From: Sporosarcina ureae
GTDB lineage: Bacteria; Bacillota; Bacilli; Bacillales_A; Planococcaceae
Reading direction: 5' to 3'
DNA: 64,000 nucleotides
NCBI RefSeq assembly: GCF_002082015.1
Contig: NZ_CP015109.1
Location: forward strand, 994,001 to 1,058,000
The translations under genes and the position numbers were made by a program. Numbering within the stretch: the stretch's first letter is position 1; each line of letters begins with the position of its first letter. A model generated the notes under the pieces. The model saw nothing but the letters and a program-made list of their open reading frames with translations, was not told the DNA's origin and did not search any database. Shown piece after piece: positions 52,614 through 59,741 of this stretch.

Positions 52614-55600
52614 TTATATTTTTGCCACTAACCCCTTAAACTTTTCATAATTGACTTTCACACCGTCATCCAAGTCAATCTCAATTTGCATATCCGCCAT
52701 ATGGTGTAACAGCTCATCATACGCTTTCAACTCGTCGATTTTCTTATCGAGGGATTTCAGTTCCTTTTTGGCATTGCTGATTTCTTTCGTTGTGGAATCT
52801 CCTTCGATGATATCAAGCAAGTCCTTCTTCTCCGCATCCAAGCGAATTTGAACTTCATGCAAATAATCCGTCCGAATACGGGATAGCGTCGTTTTGTCGT
52901 AACGGTGCATATAAATAAGACAATTGAACGCCTTTTCCTTACCTGATGTAAACAGCCAGTATATCGGTCGCTTCTTATACACTTGAACATGATCTTTATA
53001 AAAGTCGTTCAAGAAGTAACGACGCAATGCTTCCCTCGCTGTCTCATTTTTACGTCGACCAATCGCATCCGCTACGAATTCGAGATTTTCTTCCAGTGTT
53101 TCTTCACTAAACGTTACTCGAACGAACTCAACGAATCTTGTTACGATATCATCTTCGAAATAAGCACCTGGCAGGATTGGAAGGATGTTGTCTTCGTCTA
53201 CGGAAAATGTTTTATATCTGGAAGAATCGAATTCTCCGCCTGCATAGATAAGCCCTTCTTCATCAAGCGAATAACGACCGAAAGAACAGCCGATTGCATA
53301 GGAAATGAAGCTTGTAATGTCACGTTCTAAATCGGCTTTGCGGATGGTGATATTATTAACGTCAACTTTTGAAGATAGTTCATCTTGCAAATTATAAAGC
53401 TGAATATATATTTTATTGAGCTCTTCTTCATAAATCGTCATTTGATTAAACTGCTCTTCCATAAATTCTTGCCACAACCCAAAAGCTATTTTAAGTTGCG
53501 TTAAAGTATTTTCATCCTTCATTAAAGGGTGCTTTTTGAACCCCCAGGAGAACTCATATGAATCCCATTCATCTTTCGAGATTTGTATTAAACTTTCAAC
53601 CTTAATATTAATTGATTCAATGATTTCTTTATCTGAAAGTATTATCGGAATTTTAGCAACTGATTCCGCTTGAATTGCGATTGTTGGATTAATTATTCTT
53701 ACGAAGTGGTTAGCAATTTTACTACACAAAAATCCAATAAAATAAGAATGAAATTTCTCTTCTGCGAAAAGAACTGAACCATTGGAATCAAAAATAAAAC
53801 CTTCTGGCAAGTATCGCACTCCGAAATATGAACTACTAATTCTGGACCAAGTTATTCCCCTTTGAAAATAATGTTTCTCATTTGTTATTTTCCAATTTAA
53901 ATTATCACCCAATTGGGGGTATACTCGTCTTGTATTTTCTTTTATTTCATGCCCATCATTTTCCCAATTTACAACATAATCATTATTTCCATACCACTTT
54001 CTGAATTCTCCACCTTTACAATACGGAATCCATTTTACTTTTTGTTTAAATGCATCTTTCGCAGACTTCATAGAAATACCCATTTTATCAAATTCTATTT
54101 CATGCCATAATCTAAGAAAGCGATTATTATCACCCGTCCTCATTCCAAAACAAATTTTAGAGTAATTATCCAAACTTTTATTATTTGAAAAAACTTCATT
54201 TACATTTCCACTTGCCCAATACGCAATCGGGCTTCCTGGAATTTTACTGAAGTTTTCTTGACTGAATGAGTAACGATGCGGAGCAGAGGGATTAAGAACT
54301 GCATCTACCGCTTTTTCTCGTTTCTCTTCAGCTGTTCTTTCTTCGATCATTCGCAAATAAATTCCTTTGCTATCGGACACTTCAACACTTCTTAATACAA
54401 ACGCCGTTGATTGCACAACTTCGCCACCAATTTCCTCAAATGCTCTCGGTCCCAAGTGCAACATTGTATCGATGAATTTATTGTTAATGACCTTTTCACG
54501 CAACTTTTCAAAGCTGGATAGGAACATCCATGAATGCTGATTAATGGCCGCATAGAAACCGTTTTTCTTTAAGTAATGATCCACTTCCATGAAGGAGGCG
54601 AATAAGTCGGATTTTGAATCGGGATAGTTCTTTTTGAGAAAATCAGACAGTTCTTTGTTCATACTTCCCGAACCCATGTAAGGTGGATTCATGACGACGA
54701 TGTCATATTGTTGACCCATGATTTTCGATTGTTGAATAAGTAATGGAAGTAAAGCCAATGTTTTCTCCCGCATCTCTGTTTGAAAAATATCATCTACAGG
54801 ATTGTCTTTTATCTCACGAAGCCTATTCTCTAAATATACTGTATCTATTGCCGTCGCTTTAATAAGTGAACCGTATGTTTTGGCATTTTTAAATGTATCA
54901 ATTAGGATTTTTGTCACATCGAATACTGTATCGTTATCATTGCCTGCAACATACAAAATGTCTTCTTCTGTCCATCCGTTCGTTTCTTGCACAGATGCCA
55001 AATTGAGTGTTAGTCCATCTCTTTCGATACTTCTTAAGAAACGTCTATTGTATTGCAATGCTTTCATAACAACTGAAAAGCTTGCCAATTGATACGCTCG
55101 ATCGTCAATGTCTAATCCATATAAATTTTTTTCAATAATTAGGCGTGGAATTTCTCTTTCCATATAACCGCATTTGCTATAAATCTCGTAAAGAACATCG
55201 AACATATAGACAAGGATATGGCCGCTTCCCATTGCAGGATCAAAGCACTTAATGTCCTCTACATCTAATTCTTTATTGACATATGGGATAATTTTTTCTT
55301 GAGATTCTTCTTGTTCGTGATTTAAGAAAAACTCCCATCCTTCGATTAAATCATTATGCTCTGGATGGGCTTCTGTCCAGTAACGTCCAAGCGAGTTTTG
55401 CACCATATATTGAACAATCCAGTCTGGTGTAAAAAGCTGAGTTGCAAAAGGGATTTCTTCCGCCTTATATTTCTTTTTCGCTTTGAAAACACGGTCTTTT
55501 TCTTCGGCAATATAGTATTGATACAACCACCCGATTACCTCGATTTTCTCCCAGTTAGCTTCTGGTATAACTTCCGTATCCGTCATTTGACGTACAAACG

Positions 55601-59200: not shown

Positions 59201-59741
59201 ATCCTTCTGGAAAGAGAATTTCCGTATAGTCTTCAATTGTCTCGAACATAAATGGCATGTATCGGTTTAAATCGTTACAATGCATTTTGATCAGATATTT
59301 GAAAAGGTCGTCTGTCTCATTGTTCATTTTCATGTCGTACACTTTTTCTTTATCTAAATCAAGATCCAGTGACAAAGCTTCTTTCATCATATCTGGCTCG
59401 GCACTGCCTGAATTTGAGGATAGGACCCGCACTTTTGTTGGAAGATATTCGTTCACTTCCATGTATCTTAATGCGATGAAACGGTTGAACCAAGTGTATG
59501 CCGTCTCTTCCATTACTCGTTCAAAGCCGATTTCGTTAATTCGAGCAATAAGTTTATTCCGTTGTTGTCTTTCTGTATCTGAAAGCTGTTTGCCGTCAAT
59601 AAAGACGGCATCGGAGCTTTCGACATTTGCTTTTTGGATAGATTCGGCTGTAATGCCAAGCTTTCTTGCTTGTAGTTCTACTTTTTCAAGCAACTCTACT
59701 CGTGCTTCGGTTGCGAATTTCTTTAATGCAGTTTTATTCAT
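56241..59741 (-). CDS. pglX: BREX adenine methyltransferase PglX, first copy
   Basis: 1166 residues; ATG 59741 follows GAAGGGTGAAAATAG, 13 bases after brxC. SAM site [20 protein letters not shown], catalytic NPPY from residue 491 ([14 protein letters not shown]), then a variable region ([40 protein letters not shown]). Both copies are full length with intact motifs, so both are probably active. The shared ends (e.g. C-terminal [20 protein letters not shown] in both) are long enough for homologous recombination that would delete one copy or create a hybrid. Confidence 0.92.
   Translation of the reverse strand: [1166 protein letters not shown]

Follow-up and report, generated by a model that had tools for sequence, protein, structure and literature searches.

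Two intact pglX genes of different core class in a type 1 BREX operon of Sporosarcina ureae and their probable role as paired specificity factors

Results

A complete type 1 BREX operon with two adjoining pglX genes

The window, i.e. the whole 64,000-nt stretch of Sporosarcina ureae DNA that was analysed, is part of a 3.41-Mb single-contig genome. It carries a complete type 1 BREX gene set (brxA, brxB, brxC, pglX, pglZ of type A and brxL) in a single operon on the minus strand, with the order brxA-brxB-brxC-pglX_B-pglX_A-ditA-ditB-pglZ-brxL (Table 1). A search of the genome identified no pglX elsewhere. Neither open reading frames nor profile matches revealed a recombinase gene from brxA to brxL or beside the BREX genes, and no inverted repeats of at least 30 nt were found within 50-62 kb of the window. 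Recombinase-driven inversion was, therefore, rejected for this operon, in which we found none of the marks of a phase-variable pglX switch, i.e. a recombinase, an inverted repeat or inverted partial copy, or a recently homogenised tract. A scan for promoters and terminators gave site numbers no higher than in shuffled sequences.

The two pglX genes are arranged head to tail with a gap of 84 nt, both are intact, and each is preceded by a purine-rich sequence resembling a ribosome-binding site. An earlier sequence-only reading had described two methylase genes at these positions, both with intact SAM and NPPY motifs, and our analysis confirms this description: both products match the PglX profile NF033452 over their full length above its cut-off of 500 bits, and the motif I region (DPAMGSGH) as well as the NPPY motif IV is intact in each.

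Table 1. Features of the BREX operon and of the two PglX coding regions, in positions of the window
Feature	Position	Strand	Remarks
brxA, 3' end in window	63926..64000	-	gene continues to 64522 outside window; L147:926-1522, PF08849
brxB	63347..63928	-	PADLOC BrxB 1e-73
brxC	59755..63327	-	NF033441 1322 bits
pglX copy B (upstream), 1166 aa, immediately following brxC	56241..59741	-	NF033452 1418 bits; class-B core
Conserved N-terminal part of B, residues 1-397: helical domain and first MTase half with motif I	58551..59741	-	93/80% identical to A
Variable core of B, residues ~398-906: second MTase half, TRD, spacer	57024..58550	-	37-43% identical to A
NPPY motif IV of B, residues 491-494	58260..58271	-	
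Base-6 loop of B, short form, residues 569-584	57990..58037	-	aligned to E. coli BrxX 586-604
TRD of B, residues ~636-822	57276..57836	-	80% identical to S. thermotolerans TRD
Conserved C-terminal part of B, residues 907-1166 plus stop codon	56241..57023	-	~88% identical to A
pglX copy A (downstream), 1180 aa, starting with TTG	52614..56156	-	NF033452 1458 bits; class-A core
Conserved N-terminal part of A, residues 1-395	54972..56156	-	A-B comparison
Variable core of A, residues 396-920	53397..54971	-	A-B comparison
NPPY motif IV of A, residues 490-493	54678..54689	-	
Base-6 loop of A, long form HLGPRAFEEIGGEVVQSTA, residues 567-585	54402..54458	-	
TRD of A, residues ~641-835	53652..54236	-	best match 54% (L055)
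Conserved C-terminal part of A, residues 921-1180 plus stop codon	52614..53396	-	A-B comparison
ditA-like accessory gene (DUF5677)	51018..52484	-	in-frame TGA at codon 44
ditB-like accessory gene	49934..51028	-	PADLOC DitB 7.5e-94
pglZ (type A)	47250..49817	-	TIGR02687
brxL	45176..47233	-	TIGR02653

The ditA-like gene contains a lone in-frame TGA (52353-52355, minus strand) in a frame that is otherwise open, and its listed open reading frame begins only at profile position 82; the TGA likely represents a nonsense mutation or indicates a later start. Downstream of the operon, a 140-aa N-terminal fragment of an SduA-like protein (DUF4263; 44655-45077, minus strand) is probably truncated. A UG13b-type defence reverse transcriptase gene (42823-44586) adjoins a SMODS-associated NUDIX gene (40257-42826, minus strand) that is apparently split in two by an open reading frame (41013-42290), which, from reading its sequence, looks like an IS110-type transposase gene.

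Conserved ends flank a divergent core

To compare the two copies, domain borders from solved PglX/BrxX structures (PMC11341690) were transferred by sequence matching. A and B are 93% identical in the N-terminal helical domain and 80% in the first MTase half; identity is 37% in the second MTase half, 38% in the TRD and 43% in the spacer, and 88% in the C-terminal part. Counted by alignment columns, identity is ~87% over the first 400 (93% in 1-226 and 80% in 227-395) and ~90% over the last 234, and at the DNA level the conserved ends are 71-92% identical. Thus, the ends are conserved as the earlier reading had it, but they do not match almost fully. Similarly, the middle parts differ as described, including the zone after NPPY, but the divergent zone is wider than the TRD: it covers residues ~396-920, i.e. 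it starts ~95 residues before NPPY and runs through the spacer. Because identity drops at this point, the break is located within the MTase domain instead of at the TRD border. The same profile, with conserved ends and a divergent core, emerges when copy A is compared to single-copy PglX from other genera (90, 88, 73, 35, 42 and 90% against L006). The pattern is far from chance, yet it is not special to the A-B pair. The cores are under constraint, with dN of 0.17-0.22 versus dS of 1.6-2.1 in the MTase half relative to the nearest homologues of the same class.

The two copies carry different base-6 loops

PglX is the specificity factor of BREX (PMC11341690), and in the structure of E. coli BrxX on DNA, residues of the TRD read bases 1-4 and the MTase loop 587-601 reads base 6 (PMC11842806). 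The core difference between A and B covers both of these base-contacting parts. Among 87 PglX and the references, the base-6 loop has mainly three length classes of 15, 16 and 19 residues, in accordance with the core classes. The long form of 19 residues is found in copy A, as in the E. coli (GGTAAG) and Salmonella (GATCAG) enzymes, and the short form of 16 residues in copy B, where it is near-identical to that of E. fergusonii (GCTAAT). The Acinetobacter NEB394 enzyme, with the motif GTAGAT (PMC9122589), was aligned after the loop rule was drawn and has the 16-residue form, matching its final T; loop form and last base of the motif, therefore, agree in all four characterised enzymes that were aligned. 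At the positions that contact base 4 (G785/N823 in E. coli), B has G/N, as in the two enzymes reading A4, and A has N/A. The corresponding residue of the Acinetobacter NEB394 enzyme is His, consistent with the base-4 rule of His for G (PMC11341690).

Because A has the long loop while B has the short loop together with Asn at the base-4 position, the motif of A is predicted to end in ..AG and that of B is predicted to be NNNAAT, under a loop rule drawn from four enzymes only and with a loop class that may travel together with other features. The Arg of all four known G1 readers is present in neither copy, leaving most of each motif unpredicted; a full prediction from contact residues was dropped, as it is arguable for base 6 and for base 4 of B only. 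Belonging to different core classes, A and B very probably read different motifs. The earlier suggestion that two host motifs are modified at once gains support by inference from the intact genes, the constrained cores and the differing base-6 loops and base-4 residues. More generally, the last base of a BREX motif might follow from the loop class by a simple sequence rule.

Cores have been exchanged among PglX relatives

In trees of the end domains, PglX group largely by lineage, with tandem partners close together. By contrast, the tree of the MTase half splits PglX into old classes, and a class-B clade with 100% support (quick method) joins copy B with PglX of Bacillus, Metabacillus, Heyndrickxia and others. 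A single clade of the two window copies on the MTase half was rejected (AU p 2.6e-28), as was class B as one group on the end domains (p 0.001 and 3e-5). Across 44 PglX, the N tree requires 17 changes of core class and the C tree 21, compared to two on the tree of the core itself. This difference argues that core swapping is general in the group, and frequent core exchange is thus a habit of Bacillales PglX at large.

Matching pglX regions are present in a genome of the same genus as the window (G225) and in Sporosarcina thermotolerans CP125968 (L028/L146 versus L085). The single pglX of S. thermotolerans (L085 7911-11494), which has a frameshift near residue 555, combines window-like N- and C-terminal ends with a TRD closely matching that of B (Table 1) and a third type of MTase half. 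In Bacillus sp. V3B, one copy (L057:7935-11504) has the TRD of B (~66%), and similarity elsewhere is distant. Judged by these combinations, MTase half and TRD are exchanged separately.

Split or truncated pglX genes were also observed. At five loci (L072, L073, L076, L078 and that of G540, L140/L143), the pglX frame stops near residue 785-880 and the C-terminal part is in a separate frame, sometimes 0.5-3 kb further on, possibly reflecting an inserted element or a switch at the border between TRD and spacer. In Methanobrevibacter (L083 7980-10883), pglX is truncated near residue 650, and the opposite strand just beyond it carries a TRD-like piece, an arrangement reminiscent of an invertible switch.

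Other tandem pairs

Two intact adjoining copies are also present in Bacillus massiliglaciei (L039), Bacillus sp. V3B (L057) and G082 (L145). G460 (L148) has one intact and one frameshifted copy, and in Neobacillus PS3-12 (L049) the second copy, ~5 kb away, is frameshifted. Together with the window, both copies are intact in four of the six pairs. Tandem pairs are rare: in systematic samples with 26, 24 and 35 PglX-positive genomes from the family/order, class and phylum, respectively, only G082 and G460 have one, apart from the window. Two pairs contain recent conversion tracts, both confined to the conserved ends. In L057 (tract at codons 260-360), 158 identical nucleotides end at codon 362 just outside the core, and in L145 codons 1005-1154 of both genes are 98-100% the same. 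Core classes are mixed in all four intact pairs and in G460; however, chance alone would give this with a probability of 0.08, and in L049 the second copy resembles class A like the first, an argument against mixed classes as a fixed rule of tandem pairs. We rejected this rule.

A different arrangement is found on the Lactobacillus brevis plasmid pl12108-2 (L150 3779-10852), where a full pglX, a tyrosine recombinase gene and an inverted partial pglX adjoin; it looks like a dedicated specificity switch.

The pair is old

Synonymous sites of the end domains differ between A and B at 57-85% per domain (36-90% along the ends), a divergence similar to that between copy A and PglX of other genera, and the longest exact match is 40 nt. 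A weak excess of runs of identical codons (permutation p 0.027) is old at best, and recent gene conversion between A and B was rejected. On the N tree, A and B are nearest neighbours. At the N end (codons 1-200), S. thermotolerans sides with B at 50 of 74 informative sites (50:24), and at the C end (codons 1041-1180) it sides with A at 49 of 64 (49:15), a contrast with a Fisher p of 2e-7; over most of their length, the N end of B and the C end of A are nearer to S. thermotolerans than to the partner copy. With synonymous sites near saturation and the ends of single-copy PglX nearly as similar, the shared ends do not reflect a recent duplication. The pair seems to have resident outer ends and differing inner ends, a pattern that the entry of a second pglX through intragenic recombination would produce, and we infer that the pair arose long ago in this way. 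Alternatively, the C end of B could have evolved faster, given that A is nearer than B to some other genera there as well.

Discussion

We suggest that the operon encodes a single type 1 BREX machine with two interchangeable specificity factors. This is the best explanation of the pair and a reasonably probable one, building on the integrity of the genes, their place in one operon, the mosaic structure, the class difference, the loop types and the age of the pair. In this model, the conserved ends, i.e. the N-terminal helical domain with the SAM-binding half and the C-terminal domain, would let each PglX join the same BrxB/BrxC/PglZ assembly, their conservation suggesting that these parts dock on the rest of the machine. 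The divergent core, of E. coli type in copy A and of E. fergusonii type in copy B, would set the DNA motif. Both copies would be expressed and translated from the operon; as a consequence, the host would be methylated at both motifs and a phage would have to lack or modify both in order to escape. Some points weigh against the model, foremost the L. casei/paracasei Zhang BREX system, where a second methyltransferase gene adds nothing to methylation (PMC10164179). In addition, copy A may be made at a lower level than B because of its TTG start and downstream place, and the nonsense codon in ditA makes decay of the operon possible. In E. coli, a BrxX mutant of relaxed specificity raised defence (PMC11842806), which we count in favor of a model with two factors.

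The sequence-only reading had offered a reservoir as its second option. In this scenario, exchange between the conserved ends acts as a slow switch that yields a hybrid or single-copy pglX and shifts BREX specificity in part of the population. As a property of this kind of gene, the idea is supported by the core-class changes on the end trees, the conversion tracts in L057 and L145 and the B-like TRD on a different MTase half in S. thermotolerans. As an ongoing process in this operon, it fares poorly: a recent tract is absent, and the short longest match, the high synonymous divergence and the lack of a recombinase make frequent switching between A and B unlikely at present. Moreover, both copies point the same way and the BREX genes neither contain nor adjoin a recombinase gene, which sets the pair apart from the L. 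brevis switch; a crossover between such direct repeats would reduce the pair to a single copy, with loss of the sequence in between. Overall, we consider a reservoir an unlikely account of the locus. We also doubt that only one copy is active with the other being a passenger or regulatory. The second methyltransferase of the L. casei/paracasei Zhang system (PMC10164179) is a precedent, and the frameshifted second copies in G460 and Neobacillus PS3-12 make clear that loss does happen; on the other hand, both pglX genes of the window span the full length, retain their catalytic motifs and show constraint in the MTase half, and most of the pairs found have two intact genes. Finally, a recent tandem duplication followed by fast TRD divergence is very improbable, since the neighbourhood of the two N-terminal ends on the N tree is outweighed by nearly saturated synonymous sites, by cores in separate old clades common to other families and by the closer affinity of B's N end and A's C end to S. 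thermotolerans; the recent duplication implied by the earlier reading is, accordingly, not supported.

The model of one machine with two factors might extend to a combinatorial scheme, which we put forward tentatively and with less confidence than the model itself. The second MTase half, setting the last base via its loop, and the TRD, setting bases 1-4, would recombine separately on a lineage-specific scaffold, and a tandem operon would bring two module classes together, enabling a single machine to police two motifs that differ in their last base, perhaps in one mixed complex.

Compared to type 1 BREX systems with a single PglX (E. coli HS, Salmonella, E. fergusonii pEFER, Acinetobacter NEB394 and B. 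cereus), the window has the same six genes in the same order, the same PglX family and domain plan, and homologous base-6 loop types; it differs in having two full-length pglX of different core class and DitA/B-like genes between pglX and pglZ. To our knowledge, the characterised BREX systems have one methylated motif each. Duplication and phase variation of pglX are known from BREX loci (Goldfarb 2015, as cited in PMC11842806). As far as this citation conveys, those loci share with the window more than one pglX per operon, whereas the copies described here are in direct tandem, intact and anciently diverged, with defined core classes and a likely base-6 difference. The Lactobacillus-type loci (L. 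brevis; L. casei/paracasei Zhang) likewise have a second pglX-like gene; however, the second copy of L. brevis is inverted, partial and next to a tyrosine recombinase gene, and the window has neither recombinase nor inversion. Type I R-M operons, about 4% of which have more than one hsdS (PMC12429846), similarly combine one machine with several specificity determinants made of a conserved scaffold and variable TRDs. They are a different system, BREX uniting methyltransferase and TRD in one protein, and the likeness is one of working and not of membership. As far as the literature searched shows, the definition of two recognition classes within one operon, a checkable motif prediction for two pglX copies and the evidence for separate exchange of MTase half and TRD are new.

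The exchange borders described here are natural recombination cut sites in PglX and bear on the engineering of these proteins. With two intact pglX of different recognition class, the S. ureae operon is a natural test of whether one BREX machine can carry two specificities, with the concrete prediction of one motif ending in AG and one ending in AAT.
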